Source of the DNA: an uncultured Bacilli bacterium
GTDB lineage: Bacteria; Bacillota_I; Bacilli_A; RF39; UBA660
Direction of reading: 5' to 3'
Length of the DNA stretch: 39,345 bases
Assembly: GCA_944372455.1 (NCBI GenBank)
Contig: CALVZF010000011.1
Span: forward strand, 1-39,345
A program made the translations under genes and the position numbers. A model generated the notes under the pieces. It searched no databases. It was not told the origin of the DNA and saw only the letters and a program-made list of their open reading frames with translations. Below are positions 13,971-24,031 of the stretch, piece by piece (the stretch's first letter is position 1; the number at the start of each line of letters is the position of its first letter).

Positions 13971-13989
13971 TAGTGTAATATATAAGAAA

Positions 13990-14022
13990 AAGGAATTAAA
14001 AATTTTTGATTTTTAATTCCTT
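13990..14022 (-). terminator. Strong terminator of the peptidase/scaffold operon
   Basis: Minus strand: a perfect 14-bp stem AAGGAATTAAAAAT / ATTTTTAATTCCTT with a 5-base loop, followed by TTTCTTATA. The scaffold TAA (14013-14015) is inside the 5' arm. Confidence 0.88.
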
Positions 14023-16859
14023 AAATCGTCAATAATTTCTGTATTGTCTTTATTAACTATTTCAATTTTATCTGCTTGTTCAAAGCTATCATTATTTGGA
14101 GTTGCATTATAAATTGGATCGTCAAATGAAACAGTACTTGTCATTCCGTCTTCACTCATATTACCTTTATTTTTATTGTTTTTATTTTTCATAATTATAG
14201 CAATTATTATTAAAGCAACTATCACAATGATTAAAGCAATAATTGAAACTATTGTAAGCACTCTATTTGTACTTATATTATTTGCTAATTTTAATACTGA
14301 AGTAGATAACATATATTTTGATAATTTATTAGATTCAAAGGTAATATAACCATCAACTACTTTAATATTTGTTTTAATTGTTTCTATTTTATTATTTTTA
14401 GGATTGTAATATGAAAGATTTAATACTTCACCATCTTTAAATTTATCTCCTACAAATACTTTAGCAATTAAATTAGTTGAAGATTTACCATTATCTTTAA
14501 AATTAAGGAATTTAACATTTTTATCGTTTAATTTTAAAGAAGTGTCTTCATTAAAATCTAAATCAAAATCTATATCTTCTATTTGTTTAACATCTTCAGA
14601 GGTTAAAGTTAAAGAATACAATAGTCCATCATTCTCATTTAATACTTCATATATTAATGTTTTATCACTATCTTTTAATTCTTTTAAAATACTTTGATCT
14701 ATTTGTCTATTTTTATCATTTTCTTTAACTGTTATAGTAATTACACTATCATCACCATTTTTAATAGCTTCAATTATACTTTCTTTATCATTTTGTACTA
14801 TACTTTGGTTTTCTTTCCTTTCTATCAAAATTTGGTAAGTTTTAGTAGTTCCATCTTCTGCTGTTACTATTATTTTAAAAGTATTAATTCCAACAATTAA
14901 ATCAGGTTTACCTTCTAATATCGCACTTGCTTTATCATCGTCTAAAATATATTTAATATCTACTGTTGAAATAGAATTTTTAACGCTAACAGTATAAACA
15001 TCTTGATTATCTTTTAACCTTAAATCCAATCCGTTTATAGTTATATTTCTAATTTTAGTATTATTAGATAGTTTTGGAGTTTCTCCTTCTTTATTTTTTC
15101 TAATGATTGTTACTATATATGTTTTAGTTTTAGAAGACTCTGAAGTTACTGTAATTTTAAATACATTACTTCCTACCTTTAATGTTTTTTTACCTAAACC
15201 AATAACAATTGCTTTACTATCTTCTTTTTCTCCACTAATAGTTACACTATCAATATTATTTTCTACAGTAACCGTATATGCAGTTTGACTTGGCTTAAAA
15301 TTAATAGTAGCATCACTAATTTTTAATGATTTCAAATTATTATTGTTACTTCTTCCATCTGTTCTTGTGATATTAAATGTATAAACTTTTTTAATACCGG
15401 TTTCAGAAGTTACAGTAATTTGTAATTGTTTAGTTTCTCCATAATTTAGTGTTATGGTTTGTTCTTTTGGACTAACAGTTGCTTTACTATCTTCTGCTAC
15501 TCCTTTAAGTGTAAACGAAGAATTATTACTTGGAATTGTAATATTATATAAAGTTATATCCTTACTGAAATTAATGTTTCCTCCACTTATAGTAACACTT
15601 TTTAGGTTAGCATTATTACTTCTATCATCACGTCTTGTAATGTTAAAAGTATAAGTTTTAGTAGCTCCCGATTCAGCAGTTACGGTAATTTGTAGTTGTT
15701 TAGTTTCTCCATAATTTAAGTTTATACTTTGACCTTTTGGATAACTAACTTGCGCTTTACTATCTTCTGCTGTTCCAGATATATTAAACGAAGAGTTATT
15801 TCCTGGAATTGTAATATCATATATTTCAACGGATTTATCAAAATTGATAGTTCCACTGCTTATTGTAACATTTTTTAAATTAGCATTCCCACTTCTATTA
15901 TCAGGTCTTGTAATATTAAAAGTATAAGTTCTTTTTCCCCCTTTTTCAGGAGTTACTACTATTTGTAATTGTTTAGTTTCTTCATAATCTAAAGTTATTT
16001 CTTTTCCCATTGGATAACTTACAATAGATTTACTATCTTCAGCAATTCCTTCTAAACTAAATGAAGAGTTTCCTCCAGGGATTGTAATGTCATAAGTTTG
16101 TATTGTTTTATCAAAATTAATGGTTCCACTACTTATTATAACATTACTTAAATAACTATTTGTACTTCTATTATCAGGTCTCGTAATTACAATTGTGTAA
16201 GTTTTTGAAGTTCCTGCTTCAGGAGTTACTACTACTTTAAATGTATTTGCCCCATAATTTAAACTTTTAGTTCCAGTACCAGTTACTGTACTTCCTTGAG
16301 CAGCAGTCGCACTTATAGTTACATTTGGAGCATCAACTGTTGCAGTATAGTTTGTAATACTTGCATTAAAAGCAGGAGATAAAGTTCCGTTATCTATTGA
16401 TAAGGAAGATAAATTATTATCTGTACCAGGTACTCTAACTGTTGTAGTTACATTTGGAACAGAAAATGAGTTATCAATGGTAAAAATTTTACCTCCGGAA
16501 AGTGAAATAGTTTTAGTGTTACTTCCATTGTCATTTACTGTCAAAGTTATAGTACCTACTGTAACCTCACCATCTAAATCGGTTCCAGAGATTGTTGATA
16601 GTTTTCCGTTTTCTAAACCACCTAAATCCCAATCACTTCCTTTTTCAAATTTAGTCTGTGTAAATCCATTATATGAAATATTGGCTTCTACCCCTCCAAA
16701 TCCTGATCCAGTAGCAGTAATTTTACAAGTAATTACTTCTCCATTACTAGCAGTTTCAGGACATTTAATATCAATACTGTAATTAGCAGCATTACTTTTA
16801 ACTATTATTATTAAAAATAATGCTATTGTAAGAATTACATATTTTATTTTACCTTTCAT
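14013..16859 (-). CDS. Membrane-anchored surface scaffold: cohesin-like domain plus six cadherin-like repeats
   Basis: 948-residue type I membrane protein. A signal peptide (1-24, cleavage after SNA) precedes an Ig-like domain (about 26-143) whose strand pattern resembles cohesins: ASNGEVITCKITATG, then GVEANISYNGF, GTITLTV and a closing hydrophobic strand. Six cadherin-like beta-sandwich repeats follow (about 149-228, 236-319, 327-410, 418-500, 508-588, 602-682), each opening with LxxLxIxxGTI-type text and ending KTYTxxITR. Then comes a membrane-proximal domain (about 690-855, ending VVDGYITFESNKLSKYML), one span (867-890) and an acidic cytoplasmic tail of about 55 residues. There is no LPXTG. 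It is the last gene of an operon with three dockerin-bearing peptidases, 11 bases after the previous stop, behind AGGAGG. The cohesin assignment is my inference; the beta-sandwich repeats and topology are clear. It probably displays the peptidases at the cell surface. Confidence 0.85.
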   Translation of the reverse strand: MKGKIKYVILTIALFLIIIVKSNAANYSIDIKCPETASNGEVITCKITATGSGFGGVEANISYNGFTQTKFEKGSDWDLGGLENGKLSTISGTDLDGEVTVGTITLTVNDNGSNTKTISLSGGKIFTIDNSFSVPNVTTTVRVPGTDNNLSSLSIDNGTLSPAFNASITNYTATVDAPNVTISATAAQGSTVTGTGTKSLNYGANTFKVVVTPEAGTSKTYTIVITRPDNRSTNSYLSNVIISSGTINFDKTIQTYDITIPGGNSSFSLEGIAEDSKSIVSYPMGKEITLDYEETKQLQIVVTPEKGGKRTYTFNITRPDNRSGNANLKNVTISSGTINFDKSVEIYDITIPGNNSSFNISGTAEDSKAQVSYPKGQSINLNYGETKQLQITVTAESGATKTYTFNITRRDDRSNNANLKSVTISGGNINFSKDITLYNITIPSNNSSFTLKGVAEDSKATVSPKEQTITLNYGETKQLQITVTSETGIKKVYTFNITRTDGRSNNNNLKSLKISDATINFKPSQTAYTVTVENNIDSVTISGEKEDSKAIVIGLGKKTLKVGSNVFKITVTSESSKTKTYIVTIIRKNKEGETPKLSNNTKIRNITINGLDLRLKDNQDVYTVSVKNSISTVDIKYILDDDKASAILEGKPDLIVGINTFKIIVTAEDGTTKTYQILIERKENQSIVQNDKESIIEAIKNGDDSVITITVKENDKNRQIDQSILKELKDSDKTLIYEVLNENDGLLYSLTLTSEDVKQIEDIDFDLDFNEDTSLKLNDKNVKFLNFKDNGKSSTNLIAKVFVGDKFKDGEVLNLSYYNPKNNKIETIKTNIKVVDGYITFESNKLSKYMLSTSVLKLANNISTNRVLTIVSIIALIIVIVALIIIAIIMKNKNNKNKGNMSEDGMTSTVSFDDPIYNATPNNDSFEQADKIEIVNKDNTEIIDDLRN
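14814..16415 (-). repeat. Six tandem cadherin-like repeats within the scaffold gene
   Basis: Six units of about 250-270 bases encode the beta-sandwich repeats: 16176-16415, 15903-16154, 15630-15881, 15360-15608, 15096-15338 and 14814-15056. Units 2-4 are the most alike, sharing blocks such as FNITR, AEDSKA and YGETKQLQI, which suggests recent internal duplication. Confidence 0.85.
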
Positions 16860-16870
16860 AATTTAACCTC

Positions 16871-19186
16871 CTATAAATCATCAATTTGACCTAATACAAA
16901 CCTATGTAGTCTTAATACATCACCTGTGTCAACTGTATCGTCACTATTTACTTTTCCTGCTCTTAAATAATAATCTTCTTCTATTGGAGTAGTTCCAAGT
17001 ACATGTCTATATAGTTTCATTACATCTCCTGTGTTTACTTCTCCATTTCCATCCATTTCACCTTTTACTGAAATTCGGTATTCTATATTACTTAATTTTG
17101 CTCTTACTAACATTCCACTTCTTATCATATTATTTATTCCGGTTACTTCTCCTGATAAATCTTGCTTATAAATATTAGAATCAAAAATACTAAAATTATT
17201 TAAAAACTCGCTTCTTACTACTGAATTTACATTTGTTATTGGATTTTTATATGTTGGTATTACATTTTCTATATATCCTTCTCCTATCTTGTATTTTGAG
17301 TCGTCGTTTAATACAAATCCTGTTCCAACTGATAAATTAAAACTACTTAATACTTGTCCATTTAAAACACTTTCTACTCTGTATACTCCTGGTTTAAATG
17401 TACTTGTATCATATGTTAAACTTGTTTTGGCATTTCCATTTACAACATATCCTTTATTATTTGTAATTCCTGTTGTTATTTTATTATCATCTTGATCATA
17501 TAAATTATACTCTATTTTTGAACCAGTTTCTATATTTTTTGAAAAAGAATATAAATCTATTTGTCCATTGAAGTAAGCATAATTATTTTCAGCCCTTGTT
17601 TCTTCAACTATATTAGTACTTTCACTAGCATTTTTAGTGTATGCATATATTTCTCTAGGAGAAAAACCATTTAATGGTCTAACCATAATAGAAAACTGAT
17701 CACTTTTTAATTCTAGATTATCAATATCAACCGAAATAAGTCCTCCATAACTTGGTGTTATTGTATCAACAAGTTCTAAATCTTCTTCTTTTCCTGTAGG
17801 ACTTACATACACTTCATAAGTAACTGCTCCAGGAGATGAAATGGCAGATGTTTCAATACCTATTCTATTTAATATTTCAGTATAATCACTTAATTTATTA
17901 TAAGTGACAATTTTAGAAGTTTTTCCATTTACAGATTTATTTTCTGATTTTCTTAAATCTGAAGTATCGTAATTATTATCATAATCTCTTTTTTTCATTT
18001 TTATTGTTCCGGATAATTCATGTGTTATAGCTTCAAAAGAAAGATAAGGATTAGGATTAGAGTTACCCCAAGAGTTTTTTAAAATCCATGCTCCCTCATT
18101 ATTTGGTCCATAGTTATCATCCCAGCCTACTATTGCCATTGCATGAGCAGCACTACTATTACAGCTTCCACCTTTTTGTACTATCATATTATACTCTTTA
18201 TCATAACAAGTAGATTTTATTTGTAAAGTTTGACCTACTGTTAAAGTTTCACTGGTTAAATTATTTAAAGTCATTATTTCTTCTTTGGTAGTATTGTTAC
18301 TACGTGCCAATGTTTCCAAAGTATCTCCACTTCTTACAGTATACGTTTTACTACCATTTGATCTATAATCAGGAGCGGTAGTTCCAACATATATAGCTCC
18401 ATACTGTATGATATGTTTTTTTAACATATCTCTGTATTCTTGTTTTACTTCTTCTGTAGCATTTGAAGTAAGTGATGGAAATTGTATATAATCACTTACA
18501 TAGTAATCTACATTTGATAAATCAAAAGTTTTCTTTAAATTTTGTTTTGATATTATAGTAGTATATGGTCCCCATACACTTTCTAATTGTGGGGATACCC
18601 CACGATTAATAGTACTAGTTACATCATTGTAAAAATTTCCTCCATTACCTGGAATTCCACTACCATAGGGAGTATAATTTTCTTCAAAATAGGCTTTGCT
18701 ACTAGTTACATAGTCAATTTGATTTTCTGAAAAATTTAATTCCCCTAATCCAGTTAATCTAGCATTAGTTTCCATTGTGGCAACACCAGCAAAAGCCCAA
18801 CATAAACCTAAACTACCTTGATTCTTTTGGTTTCCATAGTAATTTACTCCATCTACATCTTTTAGATTAAATGTAGTTGGCAAGGCTTCTGGTAGACTAA
18901 ATAAACTTATTTTTTTACTAGGAATAAAATCTACTATATATTTTGTTGGAACAACTTCTAATTTACTTTTTTCTTCCTCTGATAATTTCATATATTCTTC
19001 CCATTCAGGATTTATATATGGCATACCATCTATTTTGTTTTCTTCATTAAGTATTATGTTTCCTAATTCATCATATATAACTACATTTTTTTCCTCTGCT
19101 TTTGTTTTTGGAAACAAAAATGATATTAAAATAGTTAAAAATATTATACTAACTGTTATTATTATTCCTTGTTTATTTCTTTTCAT
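16871..19186 (-). CDS. Secreted papain-family (C1) cysteine peptidase with inserted LysM and C-terminal dockerin (copy 1)
   Basis: Predicted extracellular endopeptidase, 771 residues. Order: signal peptide ending TKA (about 1-30); propeptide-like region; C1 catalytic domain with the oxyanion Gln123, Cys129 in LGLCWAFA, His348 in HAMAIVGWDD and Asn371 in LKNSWG. A LysM module (about 281-323, TYTVRSGDTLETLA) is inserted between Cys and His. A lectin-like/beta domain follows (about 435-515), then further beta regions, then a dockerin of two repeats (about 708-766, each containing NTGD or DTGD then VLG). The frame is open to an ATG at 19204 that overlaps the previous stop as ATGA. The ATG at 19186 aligns with the paralogue's MKKNKQG and is preferred. 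Very similar to copy 2 throughout. Substrate unknown. Confidence 0.88.
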   Translation of the reverse strand: MKRNKQGIIITVSIIFLTILISFLFPKTKAEEKNVVIYDELGNIILNEENKIDGMPYINPEWEEYMKLSEEEKSKLEVVPTKYIVDFIPSKKISLFSLPEALPTTFNLKDVDGVNYYGNQKNQGSLGLCWAFAGVATMETNARLTGLGELNFSENQIDYVTSSKAYFEENYTPYGSGIPGNGGNFYNDVTSTINRGVSPQLESVWGPYTTIISKQNLKKTFDLSNVDYYVSDYIQFPSLTSNATEEVKQEYRDMLKKHIIQYGAIYVGTTAPDYRSNGSKTYTVRSGDTLETLARSNNTTKEEIMTLNNLTSETLTVGQTLQIKSTCYDKEYNMIVQKGGSCNSSAAHAMAIVGWDDNYGPNNEGAWILKNSWGNSNPNPYLSFEAITHELSGTIKMKKRDYDNNYDTSDLRKSENKSVNGKTSKIVTYNKLSDYTEILNRIGIETSAISSPGAVTYEVYVSPTGKEEDLELVDTITPSYGGLISVDIDNLELKSDQFSIMVRPLNGFSPREIYAYTKNASESTNIVEETRAENNYAYFNGQIDLYSFSKNIETGSKIEYNLYDQDDNKITTGITNNKGYVVNGNAKTSLTYDTSTFKPGVYRVESVLNGQVLSSFNLSVGTGFVLNDDSKYKIGEGYIENVIPTYKNPITNVNSVVRSEFLNNFSIFDSNIYKQDLSGEVTGINNMIRSGMLVRAKLSNIEYRISVKGEMDGNGEVNTGDVMKLYRHVLGTTPIEEDYYLRAGKVNSDDTVDTGDVLRLHRFVLGQIDDL
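17422..17743 (-). repeat. 322-bp tract identical to 19752-20073
   Basis: Base-for-base comparison with copy 2 finds no difference over 322 bases. Identity breaks abruptly at both edges, although the flanking peptidase sequence is homologous but diverged. It encodes part of the beta region after the catalytic domain. Recent gene conversion is the simplest explanation. Confidence 0.92.
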
Positions 19187-19200
19187 TTTATCAACCCAAA

Positions 19201-21525
19201 TCATAAATCTTTTACTTGACCTAACACAAATCTATGTAATCTTAATACATCACCTGTGTCAACTACTTCATCATTATTTACTTTTCCTGCCCTTAAATAA
19301 TAATCCTCTTCTATCGGAGTTGTACCAAGTACATGTCTATATAACTTCATTACATCTCCTGTGTTTATTTCTCCATTTCCATCCATTTCACCTTTTACTG
19401 ATATTCGGTATTCTACATTACTTAATTTTGCTCTTACTAACATTCCACTTCTCATCAAATTATTTATTCCGGTTACTTCATCTGATAAGTCTTGTTTATA
19501 TATGTTAGAATCAAACACTTTAAAATTGTTTAAAAATTCACTTCTTACTACCGAATTTACATTAGTAATTGGATTTTTAAATGTTGGTATTACATTTTCT
19601 ATATAGCCTTCTCCTACTTTATATTTTGAATCATCATTTAAAACAAATCCTGTCCCTATTGATAAATCAAAACTACTTAGTACTTGTCCATCTATTACAC
19701 TTTCTACTTTATATATTCCTGGTTTAAATGTACTACTATCATAAGATAAATTTGTTTTGGCATTTCCATTTACAACATATCCTTTATTATTTGTAATTCC
19801 TGTTGTTATTTTATTATCATCTTGATCATATAAATTATACTCTATTTTTGAACCAGTTTCTATATTTTTTGAAAAAGAATATAAATCTATTTGTCCATTG
19901 AAGTAAGCATAATTATTTTCAGCCCTTGTTTCTTCAACTATATTAGTACTTTCACTAGCATTTTTAGTGTATGCATATATTTCTCTAGGAGAAAAACCAT
20001 TTAATGGTCTAACCATAATAGAAAACTGATCACTTTTTAATTCTAGATTATCAATATCAACCGAAATAAGTCCACCATGATCTGGAGTTATTGTATCAAT
20101 AAGTTCTAAATCTTCTTCTTTTCCTGTTGTACTTATATAAACTTCATAAGTTACAGATCCTGGAGAAGAAAGAGCGCTCGTTTCAATACCTATTCTATTT
20201 AAAATTTCAGTATAATTACTTAATTTATTATAAGTTACCATTTTAGAATATTTACCATCTACAGTTTTATTTTCTGCTTTTCTTAAATCAGAAGTATCAT
20301 AATTATTATCATAATTCCTTTTTTCCATTTTTATTATTCCAAACAAACCTGAATATGCATTAGAATGTTTAAAAGAAAGATAAGGATTAGGAATAGAATT
20401 ACCCCAAGAGTTTTTTAAAATCCATGCTCCTTCATTATTTGGTCCATAATTATCATCCCATCCTACTATTGCCATTGCATGTGTAGAATCAACACCTTTA
20501 CCACAATACTTATGATAGGTTATTAATTTTTGGCTACTATCATAACAAATGGATTTTACTTTTATTGTTTCACCTATTGTTAAATTTTCATCTTTTAAAT
20601 TGTTAAGACTCATTATAGCTTCTTTGGTTGTATTATATTGTTTAGCTATACTATCTAAAGTTTCACCTGTTTTAATTTCATGATCATAAGTATAATTAGC
20701 TCTAGAATCAGGAGTTGGTGCACTAACATATATAGCTCCATACTGCATAATATGTTTTTTTATCATTTCTATATATTCTTGTTTTACTTCTTCTGTTGCA
20801 TTTGAACCAAGAGATGGAAATTGTATGTAATCACTTACATAATAATCTACATTTGATAAGTCAAAGGTTTTCTTTAATGTTTGTTTAGATATAGTAGTAT
20901 TATATGAACCCCATACACTTTCTAATTGTGGAGCTATACCACGATTAATAGAATTGGTTACATCACCACTAAAATTTCCCCCAGTTCCTGGTGTTCCACC
21001 ACCATAAGGAGTATAACCTTCTTCAAAATAAGACTTACTACTAGTAGCATAATCAATTTGATTTTCTGAAAAATCTAATTCACCTAATCCCGTTATTCTA
21101 GCATTTGTTTCCATTGTAGCAACACTTGCAAAATCCCAACATAAACCTAAACTGCTTTGATTTTTTTGTTTTCCATAATAATTTTTTCCATCTACATCTT
21201 TTAGATTAAATGTGGTTGGTAAAACTTCTGGTAAGCTAAATAAGCTTATTTTTTTACTAGGGATAAAATCAACTATATATTTTGTCGGAATAACTTCTGA
21301 TTTATTTTTTTCTTCTTCTGATAATTTCATATATTCTTCCCATTCAGGATTTATATATGGCATACCATCTATTTTGTTTTCTTCAGTAAGTATTATGTTT
21401 CCTAATTCATCATATATAACTACATTTTTTTCTTCTGCTTTTGTTTTAGGAAACAAAAATGATACCAAAATAGTTAAAAACATTATACTAATTGTTATTA
21501 TTATTCCTTGTTTATTCTTCTTCAT
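19201..21525 (-). CDS. Secreted papain-family (C1) cysteine peptidase with inserted LysM and C-terminal dockerin (copy 2)
   Basis: 774-residue paralogue of the copy 1 peptidase. Signal peptide with cleavage after KTKA (residue 30). The C1 domain has Gln123, Cys129, His349 and Asn372; LysM at about 281-324 (EIKTGETLDSIAKQYN) lies between Cys and His. The beta/lectin-like region is followed by a two-repeat dockerin (GEMDGNGEINTGDVMKLYR and VNNDEVVDTGDVLRLHR). The residue two after the catalytic Cys is Asp (CWDFA) rather than the usual Ala or Ser. The start ATG follows GTGGTGAT, 12 bases after the stop of copy 3. The gene is a mosaic: one tract is identical to copy 1 and another is nearly identical to copy 3. 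It ends in TGA, showing that TGA is a stop here. Confidence 0.88.
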   Translation of the reverse strand: MKKNKQGIIITISIMFLTILVSFLFPKTKAEEKNVVIYDELGNIILTEENKIDGMPYINPEWEEYMKLSEEEKNKSEVIPTKYIVDFIPSKKISLFSLPEVLPTTFNLKDVDGKNYYGKQKNQSSLGLCWDFASVATMETNARITGLGELDFSENQIDYATSSKSYFEEGYTPYGGGTPGTGGNFSGDVTNSINRGIAPQLESVWGSYNTTISKQTLKKTFDLSNVDYYVSDYIQFPSLGSNATEEVKQEYIEMIKKHIMQYGAIYVSAPTPDSRANYTYDHEIKTGETLDSIAKQYNTTKEAIMSLNNLKDENLTIGETIKVKSICYDSSQKLITYHKYCGKGVDSTHAMAIVGWDDNYGPNNEGAWILKNSWGNSIPNPYLSFKHSNAYSGLFGIIKMEKRNYDNNYDTSDLRKAENKTVDGKYSKMVTYNKLSNYTEILNRIGIETSALSSPGSVTYEVYISTTGKEEDLELIDTITPDHGGLISVDIDNLELKSDQFSIMVRPLNGFSPREIYAYTKNASESTNIVEETRAENNYAYFNGQIDLYSFSKNIETGSKIEYNLYDQDDNKITTGITNNKGYVVNGNAKTNLSYDSSTFKPGIYKVESVIDGQVLSSFDLSIGTGFVLNDDSKYKVGEGYIENVIPTFKNPITNVNSVVRSEFLNNFKVFDSNIYKQDLSDEVTGINNLMRSGMLVRAKLSNVEYRISVKGEMDGNGEINTGDVMKLYRHVLGTTPIEEDYYLRAGKVNNDEVVDTGDVLRLHRFVLGQVKDL
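19752..20073 (-). repeat. 322-bp tract identical to 17422-17743
   Basis: Partner of the tract in copy 1. No mismatch was found by eye over its length. Confidence 0.92.
20401..20798 (-). repeat. 398-bp tract nearly identical to 22804-23201
   Basis: Three mismatches in 398 bases, all within the first 61. The last 337 bases (20462-20798) are identical to 22865-23201. It encodes the inserted LysM module plus the catalytic His and Asn, while the regions on either side of the two genes are strongly diverged. Confidence 0.92.
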
Positions 21526-21537
21526 TTTATCACCACT

Positions 21538-23943
21538 TTATAAATTTTCTATTTGACCAAGAGCATATCTATGTAATCTTAATACATCTCCGGTATCTAT
21601 TTCTTCATCATCATTAATTTTTGAAGCTTCTTTATAATATAATTCATCCATTTTTACAGTTCCTAACACATAACGATGAAGTTTTAATACATCACCAGTA
21701 TCTATTAATCCATCACCATTATTATCTCCTTTTATTGATATAGGTACATTAAATGGTGTTACTAAATCATTACTATTGGAAATTGTCATTCCTGTTTTTA
21801 AATTAGTATTTGCATTTGTTATTAGTTCTGAATTAAGTCCATAAATGTTATATGTATTAGCTAAAAAGATATTACCTCTAAATTCTTTTAAATTGACAAA
21901 ATTATTACTTTTAGGAATAACTTTAAATATATATTCATTATTATCGCTATCATATATTAAATTATAATCTGAATCGGTATAAATCATAAACATATTATAT
22001 TTATAATTATAGTTTCCCAGAGTTATAGGATAATTTTCCATAACTTTATCTTTATATTTAACTTCAATTCTATATATTCCGTCATTAACTTCATTGTTAT
22101 TAAAAATAAATTTACTTTTTTGAAAACCATTAATTATTGAAAAATTATTCACAGCTATAAATTTATCAGTAACATCATTCCCATTAAAATCATAAATTTC
22201 AATGTCTAAGCTTGCACCTTGATTTATACTTTTAATATTTGAAATTATGTTAAAGTCCGTTGTTTCTTTATCTGTTTTTTGAATATAATTTTTATATCCA
22301 TAACCTCTGTTATCATAATCAATAAATGATGAGATTGTTTCTTTATCCGTAGCATCATCAGTATAAACAAAAAGTTGTAAGGGACTTACATAATCATTTG
22401 TATATGGATTTCTAAATTCAATTAGAATTTTATCACTAGTAAGTTCTAAATCATTAAACTCAATAGTATTTATAAGTTCAAAATTAGATTTTATTGTTTT
22501 TAAAAATTTTAAATCTTCTACTTTCCCAGTTGTACTTAAATATATATCAATATCATTATAAAGGTATTGAGCAAATGGTGTATATACTATTTTTTTTAGT
22601 ATTTCTTTTTCTTTACTTTTATAAATATATTGTCTAGAATAACGATAACTATCATTACCACTATTTATTGTTCCAACCTTATTTGTTCCCCAATCTTTTA
22701 TATAAACGTTATCATAATCATAAATGTTTGAATTTTGAATTTTTGTAACTCCATAGAGAGCTCCATATTTAGATTTATATGATAAATATATAGGGTTATC
22801 ACTACCCCAAGAATTTTTTAAAATCCATGCTCCTTCATTATTTGGTCCATAATTGTCATCCCAGCCTACTATTGCCATTGCATGTGTAGAATCAACACCT
22901 TTACCACAATACTTATGATAGGTTATTAATTTTTGGCTACTATCATAACAAATGGATTTTACTTTTATTGTTTCACCTATTGTTAAATTTTCATCTTTTA
23001 AATTGTTAAGACTCATTATAGCTTCTTTGGTTGTATTATATTGTTTAGCTATACTATCTAAAGTTTCACCTGTTTTAATTTCATGATCATAAGTATAATT
23101 AGCTCTAGAATCAGGAGTTGGTGCACTAACATATATAGCTCCATACTGCATAATATGTTTTTTTATCATTTCTATATATTCTTGTTTTACTTCTTCTGTT
23201 GATTCACTAGGGTTAAATGAAGGATACATTTTAGCAGACTCTATTGAATATTTTACTTTACTTTTATCAAATACTTTATCTACGCTTCGTTTATTTTTTG
23301 AAGTATCGTATGGACCCCAGTCACTTTCTAATTGAGGTGATACACCAGTTAAATTTGCTACTATAAATTCAGAAGTAAAACTTCCACCACCACCTAATTC
23401 TCCATTTTCATAGAGACTACTACCTTCTATTAATCCATCCTCACCAGTTACATAGTCAATTTGTCTTTCAGAAAAAACTAAATCTCCTAATCCACTTAAT
23501 CTAGCATTAGATTCTAAGGAAGCAACACTTGCAAAATCCCAGCATAAACCTAGATTGCTCTGGTTTTTTGTTGGCCCTACATATCTTTTTCCATTTACGT
23601 CTTTTAAATCATATTTTTCTGGTAAAACCTCATCTTCCGCAAAAAAGCTTTTAACTTTTGAAAATAAAGTTTTTTTTGTTGGTACAAAGTCTACTAGATA
23701 TTTTTCTGGAATAATTTCCCATTTACTTCTTTCTTCTTCTGATTGACTTATATACTCTTCCCATAACGGATTTAAATACGGTTTACCTTCTTTTTTATTC
23801 TCCTCTGTATATACTATATTTCCATTCTCATCAATCATTGTGTTGCTTACATCTACTTTTATAGCTTTAGAAGTAGGTAATAAAAAAATTACAGTAATTA
23901 AAACAATTACAATTATTGAATTTATTAGCCACTTTTTTTTCAT
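21538..23943 (-). CDS. Secreted papain-family (C1) cysteine peptidase with inserted LysM and C-terminal dockerin (copy 3)
   Basis: First gene of the peptidase operon; 801 residues. Signal peptide ending TSKA (about 27). The C1 domain has Gln128, Cys135 in LGLCWDFA, His354 and Asn377, with LysM inserted at about 285-329. A divergent beta region follows, then a dockerin with canonical calcium loops (DNNGDGLIDTGD and INDDEEIDTGD). Outside the shared LysM tract it differs markedly from copies 1 and 2, including a different segment after the catalytic Cys (EDGLIEGSSLYENGELGGGG), so substrate preference may differ. The frame extends to GTG at 23952, but GAGGTGGGA sits just before the ATG at 23943. 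It is 12 bases from copy 2, so the two are cotranscribed. Confidence 0.88.
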   Translation of the reverse strand: MKKKWLINSIIVIVLITVIFLLPTSKAIKVDVSNTMIDENGNIVYTEENKKEGKPYLNPLWEEYISQSEEERSKWEIIPEKYLVDFVPTKKTLFSKVKSFFAEDEVLPEKYDLKDVNGKRYVGPTKNQSNLGLCWDFASVASLESNARLSGLGDLVFSERQIDYVTGEDGLIEGSSLYENGELGGGGSFTSEFIVANLTGVSPQLESDWGPYDTSKNKRSVDKVFDKSKVKYSIESAKMYPSFNPSESTEEVKQEYIEMIKKHIMQYGAIYVSAPTPDSRANYTYDHEIKTGETLDSIAKQYNTTKEAIMSLNNLKDENLTIGETIKVKSICYDSSQKLITYHKYCGKGVDSTHAMAIVGWDDNYGPNNEGAWILKNSWGSDNPIYLSYKSKYGALYGVTKIQNSNIYDYDNVYIKDWGTNKVGTINSGNDSYRYSRQYIYKSKEKEILKKIVYTPFAQYLYNDIDIYLSTTGKVEDLKFLKTIKSNFELINTIEFNDLELTSDKILIEFRNPYTNDYVSPLQLFVYTDDATDKETISSFIDYDNRGYGYKNYIQKTDKETTDFNIISNIKSINQGASLDIEIYDFNGNDVTDKFIAVNNFSIINGFQKSKFIFNNNEVNDGIYRIEVKYKDKVMENYPITLGNYNYKYNMFMIYTDSDYNLIYDSDNNEYIFKVIPKSNNFVNLKEFRGNIFLANTYNIYGLNSELITNANTNLKTGMTISNSNDLVTPFNVPISIKGDNNGDGLIDTGDVLKLHRYVLGTVKMDELYYKEASKINDDEEIDTGDVLRLHRYALGQIENL
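22804..23201 (-). repeat. 398-bp tract nearly identical to 20401-20798
   Basis: Partner of the tract in copy 2, covering LysM and the His/Asn half of the catalytic site. Confidence 0.92.
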
Positions 23944-23964
23944 TATTCCCACCTCTATTTTATC

Positions 23965-23993
23965 TATATAAAGTATAACCTAATTTTTGAAAA
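23965..23993 (-). promoter_or_regulatory. Possible promoter of the peptidase/scaffold operon
   Basis: Minus strand TTTTCA (23988-23993), 17-bp spacer, TATATA (23965-23970). A competing -10 TATACT lies at 23972-23977 with a poor -35. It lies between the AI-2E permease terminator and copy 3. Weak matches; the position is the main support. Confidence 0.35.
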
Positions 23994-24031
23994 AAGAAAA
24001 GCGTTATTTAATTTGATATAACACTTTTCTT
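23990..24031 (-). terminator. Terminator of the relA-dtd-permease operon
   Basis: Minus strand: a 14-bp stem AAGAAAAGTGTTAT / ATAACGCTTTTCTT (one T-G pair) with a 10-base loop and a trailing T run. The permease stop (24008-24010) is inside the hairpin. Confidence 0.85.

Follow-up and report, generated by a model that had tools for sequence, protein, structure and literature searches.

Cohesins and dockerins have been studied almost entirely as parts of cellulosomes. The window analyzed here, by which we mean the whole 39,345-nucleotide stretch of DNA, contains three genes for dockerin-bearing peptidases followed by one for a membrane protein with a cohesin-like domain, and it raises the question of how these enzymes would be held at the cell surface and how many of them at a time. 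A preliminary description took the locus for a cellulosome-like complex, an array built for proteolysis. Our data point to a simpler arrangement. We consider it likely that the operon encodes a monovalent tether, made of cohesin and dockerin, that holds surface peptidases at the membrane, a reading in which we infer the binding, the 1:1 stoichiometry, the geometry of the stalk, the ligand of the LysM module, and the substrate.

Three dockerin peptidases with a nested LysM

The four-gene unit occupies the minus strand at 13985-24030, with the three peptidase genes first and the anchor gene last. Its genes are separated by 11 to 12 bp or overlap by 4 bp, and the anchor gene begins 11 bases past peptidase C. 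Terminator-like hairpins, recognized by eye, lie at both boundaries; a simple terminator scan, the rule of which needs a G+C-rich stem, flagged neither.

23995..24030, minus strand: terminator-like hairpin that closes the AI-2E-family transporter gene upstream, agaaaagtgttat / ataacgcttttct followed by a T-rich stretch
21538..23943, minus strand: peptidase A, 801 aa, ATG start with GAGGTGGG upstream; signal peptide, LysM-split C1 peptidase, dockerin; Gln128, Cys134, His354, and Asn377, numbered from the ATG
19201..21525, minus strand: peptidase B, 774 aa, same architecture; Gln123, Cys129, His349, and Asn372
16871..19204, minus strand: peptidase C, 777 aa from its listed start, same architecture; Gln129, Cys135, His354, and Asn377
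14013..16859, minus strand: membrane anchor, 948 aa, GGAGG ribosome site
13985..14022, minus strand: terminator-like hairpin at the end of the anchor gene, aaggaattaaaa / ttttaattcctt followed by TTTCTT

For peptidase A, the listed GTG start at 23952 is less likely than the ATG at 23943, and peptidase C is probably translated from the ATG at 19186. We also considered that the operon had recently been inserted as foreign DNA and rejected this, as the G+C content of both the operon and the LysM-encoding part resembles that of the surroundings.

Each of the three proteins contains a Peptidase_C1 domain (Pfam E 3e-9 to 3e-11) in which the papain active-site residues Gln, Cys, His, and Asn are intact. 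Judged by both active site and sequence match, the enzymes are papain-family C1 peptidases of the Cwp84-like kind. Cwp84 of Clostridioides difficile (4ci7, 4d59) is the nearest solved peptidase, and the match spans both catalytic halves as well as the region after them, whereas Cwp84 has neither a dockerin nor a nested LysM. A full-length model of the window peptidases, built from four sequences, was poor (pLDDT 40.8), with the LysM of peptidase B among its few well-predicted stretches.

This LysM, overlooked in the preliminary description, lies in every window peptidase between the catalytic Cys and His, just before the His:

22957..23085, minus strand: LysM within the catalytic domain of peptidase A, Pfam PF01476 E 4.4e-13
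20554..20682, minus strand: LysM of peptidase B, between Cys129 and His349, Pfam E 2.2e-12
18215..18343, minus strand: LysM within the catalytic domain of peptidase C, Pfam E 1.2e-13

The PF01476 motif is present in each of them, and the solved LysM of LytE was also matched. The module lengthens the Cys-His spacing to 219 to 220 residues, versus 176 in a same-genus peptidase of G001, where the sequence TPDSR-GG-SCY runs uninterrupted with no LysM at that site; nested LysM modules were absent from all other peptidases examined. In the open-access literature we found no description of a papain-type domain with a LysM inside it, an absence that is weak evidence. LysM modules bind peptidoglycan, and the enzymes would thus have a hold on the wall in addition to the membrane anchor.

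The peptidase genes share two blocks of identical DNA:

22865..23201, minus strand: 337 bp in peptidase A, covering the LysM, with an identical copy at 20462-20798 in peptidase B
19752..20073, minus strand: 322 bp in peptidase B, with an identical copy at 17422-17743 in peptidase C

Such blocks may be an assembly artifact, but the DNA flanking the block in A and B is only about 45 to 79% identical, and identity bounded by differing flanks points to gene conversion between the peptidase genes.

All three enzymes end in a dockerin:

21565..21732, minus strand: dockerin of peptidase A, NNGDGLIDTGD ... INDDEEIDTGD; Pfam 21.4 bits, independent model E 1.6e-13
19222..19386, minus strand: dockerin of peptidase B, by Pfam and the independent dockerin model
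16892..17056, minus strand: dockerin of peptidase C, by Pfam, the independent model, and PDB matches to the dockerin entries 8x3a and 5nrm

In hmmscan the Dockerin_1 scores (20.6 to 21.4 bits) fell just below the 22.9-bit cutoff, and two of the three passed it in a genome-wide dockerin search (24.4 to 24.6 bits). An independent model, built without any window peptidase, recovered every one of them (E 3e-11 to 2e-13); the best of 300 shuffled copies reached 0.2, some ten orders of magnitude away. The two calcium-loop/helix repeats of a type I dockerin (PF00404) are present, although the set of calcium ligands is not complete: position 1 of loop 2 is Lys rather than Asp in all three, while the other ligand positions look kept.

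The two halves of each dockerin share their recognition residues, with an average identity of 0.73. In a comparison of hand-picked repeats that omitted G009, the second repeat of which is degraded, identity across the recognition stretch was 0.64 to 1.0 within operons versus 0.11 to 0.43 between operons. Residues specific to each operon fit what would be expected of private cohesin-dockerin pairs, and those shared by the three window dockerins would be consistent with three enzymes competing for one cohesin. The similarity of the window dockerins could derive partly from recent duplication and gene conversion. In G001, however, an LRR protein and the peptidases share recognition residues while being unrelated outside the dockerin, and likeness within an operon is thus not only a matter of gene duplication.

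The membrane anchor and its cohesin-like domain

The protein encoded after peptidase C consists of a signal peptide, a cohesin-like domain, six cadherin-like repeats, a membrane-proximal domain, one membrane span, and a cytoplasmic tail:

16422..16787, minus strand: cohesin-like domain, residues 25-146, from profile comparison and fold model, with a Cys pair
14787..16418, minus strand: six cadherin-like (PF12733) stalk repeats, residues 148-691, Pfam E 1.8e-40
14196..14252, minus strand: transmembrane segment, residues 870-888, hydropathy 3.67, followed by a 60-residue tail

The preliminary description had much of this right. Its three neighboring secreted C1 peptidases, each with a two-repeat dockerin, are borne out by Pfam, the active sites, and the independent dockerin model; its next gene, 11 bases on, encoding a signal peptide, an Ig-like domain, six repeats, and one span, holds by Pfam and hydropathy; and the single span at residues 870-888 agrees with its view of an anchor held in the membrane without a sortase signal.

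Whether the Ig-like domain is a cohesin needed more distant comparisons, the Pfam cohesin model (PF00963) giving no match to the window anchor. Iterated searches with the mature domain, without its signal peptide, link it to anchors of relatives that Pfam does call cohesins, and the counterpart in G009, encoded right after a related dockerin peptidase, matches the Pfam cohesin at E 1.9e-12. A profile of the window's subfamily (A1) matched a profile of cohesins of relatives, several of them recognized by Pfam (A3), at 93.4% and E 2.4e-7, compared with 0.6% and 0.2% for decoy profiles made from cadherin-like repeats. Against the PDB, profiles A3 and A2 matched only or almost only cohesins; A1 alone reached a cohesin at E 0.49, ranked behind an unrelated Ig protein. 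Structure prediction, proposed as a check in the preliminary description, returned a cohesin-like fold, and the contrary outcome, no cohesin fold, did not occur. The best PDB matches to the model were to a Clostridium perfringens cohesin (2jh2/2w1n, E 1.1e-6, TM 0.70), which accounted for four of the top five. This fold test is shallow, since only two sequences, those of the window and L020, went into the model (pLDDT 66.5, pTM 0.66). Taken together, profiles and model make it probable that the N-terminal domain is a cohesin.

A pair of cysteines (IKCP..VITCKIT, window:16725-16763) is an invariant hallmark of the window-type cohesin subfamily; a disulfide may join the two. The membrane-proximal domain and span (window:14190-14720) also occur as stand-alone membrane proteins of about 210 to 235 residues in several genomes of the family, for example at C13:8999-9490 in the genome of the window itself (G000).

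Enzyme-anchor pairs in the genome and in its relatives

Two cohesin modules were found in G000 in all, the analysis of this genome covering the surroundings of dockerin and cohesin matches; each module is encoded after its own enzyme gene or genes, which fits private pairing. The second pair (L011:8457-11828, contig C16) comprises a SagB-like glucosaminidase with an SH3 domain, a cadherin-like repeat, and a dockerin, then, 10 bp on, a one-cohesin membrane protein. No multi-cohesin protein was found in G000, which is 94.65% complete, so that such a scaffold could lie in the missing part. About 13 dockerin proteins are encoded, namely, the three window peptidases, the SagB-like glucosaminidase, and nine TasA/SipW-like surface proteins; none of them is a plant-polysaccharide hydrolase. 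The earlier statement that no glycoside hydrolase is involved consequently stands for the operon but not for the genome, where the C16 glucosaminidase carries a dockerin and has a one-cohesin anchor of its own. The nine paralogues, on contigs C10, C13 (two), C17, C20, C21, C25, C31, and C37 (L012-L019; several cut by contig ends), have a TasA/SipW-like N terminus and, internally, a dockerin that differs in recognition type. Their varied C-terminal ends (..RGG..GIF..) recall the targets of diversity-generating retroelements.

Among 117 relatives, drawn from a genome search (a separate contig search for related loci gave one match only), Pfam at permissive cutoffs found dockerins in 63 and cohesins in 56; these and the following counts are lower bounds, because the contigs are broken and the searches work by similarity. 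At 43 dockerin places, in 35 of the 117 genomes, a cohesin starts within 600 bp downstream on the same strand. A cohesin upstream of a dockerin was seen at eight places, most of them within one long reading frame, and a cohesin on the strand opposite to a neighboring dockerin at none among the 117. The gap between enzyme and anchor in 33 distinct pairs ranges from -19 to +26 bp. The commonest enzyme is a SagB-like glucosaminidase (16 of the 33), the pair type of contig C16 recurring across the family.

The preliminary description had also suggested looking for the window's gene order in related genomes, and this enzyme-then-anchor order is indeed present in no fewer than a dozen of the family's genera, as well as in a metagenome-assembled genome (MAG) from Clostridia. 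With a peptidase as the enzyme it occurs in G001, G009, G014, G034, G163, G204, G205, G239, G245, G292, and G301, in the Clostridia MAG (L020), and probably in G306; in four of these (G205, G239, G245, and G292) the N-terminal domain of the anchor scores weakly as a cohesin. In G219 the order is reversed, with the anchor first, and in a few genomes (G010 and G238) no neighboring anchor was found beside the dockerin peptidase.

As the pair of enzyme and socket recurs family-wide, it would represent a general scheme for holding single enzymes at the surface rather than a cellulosome. Going further, we propose that private cohesin-dockerin pairs, encoded by two genes and with a recognition code specific to the operon, serve a whole family of small-genome, cellulosome-free bacteria as membrane tethers that each hold a single surface hydrolase, such as a glucosaminidase or a papain-type peptidase, and that the peptidase of this lineage gained a LysM nested in its catalytic domain and is held by both anchor and wall; to this broad form we give about even odds. 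A literature search for RF39 together with dockerin returned nothing, and we met no report in the open-access literature of enzyme-anchor operons running through a family of reduced genomes that lack cellulosomes, which is weak evidence. If the proposal is true, an arrangement of one plug and one socket per operon, by which one enzyme is kept at the membrane, is widespread among bacteria that have reduced genomes and no cellulosome. This simplest of tethers could then show how scaffold systems begin, the family would offer natural cohesin-dockerin pairs by the dozen on which to study changes in recognition, and the peptidase would be one whose catalytic domain has a wall-binding module built in.

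A probable monovalent tether, its alternatives, and known systems

We propose the following model. The three secreted papain-type peptidases would be exported, folded, and then docked singly on the one cohesin of the anchor, at the tip of a stalk of six cadherin-like repeats that would reach through or beyond the cell wall. A cadherin-like repeat measures about 4 nm, and the stalk would be roughly 25 nm long, similar to the thickness of a Gram-positive wall. The LysM beside the active site would provide a second contact, to peptidoglycan. Since the three dockerins that face the one cohesin share a recognition type, each anchor would display one of three alternative peptidases at the wall, where these might process surface or wall-bound proteins in the manner of Cwp84 or digest extracellular protein.

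An alternative that differs in purpose only is that the same tether serves the maturation of the cell's own surface proteins, as in Cwp84-like processing of wall proteins, with no role in nutrition. Cwp84 cleaves the S-layer precursor of C. difficile and is held by cell-wall-binding repeats. Its position as the closest solved peptidase over both catalytic halves and the following region, a LysM that would put the enzyme in the wall, and the nine other surface-type proteins of G000 with internal dockerins all favor this narrower purpose. We regard it as possible but hold it tentatively, as three paralogues that are most divergent in their catalytic and following regions would fit varied substrates equally well.

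A second alternative questions the binding itself: the N-terminal domain could be an adhesin with a cohesin fold that does not bind the window dockerins, in which case the peptidases would pair with the C16 cohesin or be retained at the wall by the LysM. Divergence has put the domain beyond the reach of Pfam, many Ig-like domains share its fold class, and a LysM alone could hold the enzymes. We nevertheless think this unlikely, given that the enzyme-then-anchor order is conserved and directional, that the window dockerins differ in their recognition residues from the C16 dockerin (TGDVxxLxRxxLG versus ILDLLxVQKxIL), and that the C16 cohesin already adjoins an enzyme gene of its own. Finally, a cellulosome-like proteolytic array with several enzymes on one complex, as first described, has in its favor three co-encoded dockerin enzymes and the multi-enzyme dockerin systems, peptidases included, of Limousia and Ruminococcus (PMC12997984, PMC2930009), but we rejected it as very improbable for want of any multi-cohesin protein found in G000, the anchor having a single cohesin, which would leave room for one enzyme, next to cadherin-like repeats that are unlike cohesins, and the family-wide pattern being a two-gene tether, mostly for glucosaminidases.

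The components of the proposed monovalent tether are already known singly, as dockerin peptidases, single-cohesin anchors, and pairwise cohesin-dockerin use (PMC5301203, PMC12484212, PMC11557425, PMC12997984). In Ruminococcus flavefaciens, a dockerin-bearing cysteine peptidase binds the single-cohesin surface protein ScaE by ELISA (PMC5301203, PMC3573020), and the dockerin recognition residues there share the two-fold symmetry seen here. ScaE, however, is sortase linked and holds a whole cellulosome, and its X-dockerin cysteine peptidase is of the NlpC/P60 type, whereas the anchor of the window spans the membrane, has a cadherin-like stalk, and shares an operon with its enzymes, and the search of G000 turned up no scaffold with several cohesins. 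The pairwise enzymes of C. perfringens (X82 cohesins, 2jh2; PMC12997984), also the closest fold match, resemble the window in their noncellulosomal, one-to-one use, but there the cohesin sits on a glycoside hydrolase and enzymes pair with one another, while the window cohesin belongs to a membrane anchor that has no enzyme domain. An S8 protease of Clostridium thermocellum, the double dockerin of which (dDoc_0689) prefers the cohesin of cell-bound ScaD (PMC12484212), is likewise thought to be held at the cell surface through dockerin-cohesin binding, although it is a serine protease and part of a complete cellulosome. Transmembrane scaffoldins of H. luporum, C. cibarium, and Lachnoclostridium sp. 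MSJ-17 (PMC11557425) combine one cohesin with a C-terminal membrane helix as the window anchor does; they come from a survey for cellulosome-type genomes that left their partners unclear. The Limousia mucinolysome (PMC12997984) is similar in its gut host bacterium, dockerin peptidases, and surface anchor, and differs in having multi-cohesin scaffoldins and many dockerin glycoside hydrolases.

Some relatives show other features. Small relatives of the same class have in-frame TGA codons, on which basis the genome of the window would belong to Bacilli as GTDB defines that class. Reading frames of about 2,400 to 3,100 residues in G019 (C1), G012 (C8), G031 (C27), and others combine cohesin and dockerin in one protein. 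In G001 (contig C7, L082:702-2720), two one-cohesin genes adjoin each other, one with a sortase-type NPQTG signal and the other with a plain membrane span, and four dockerin genes with a similar recognition code lie next to them.
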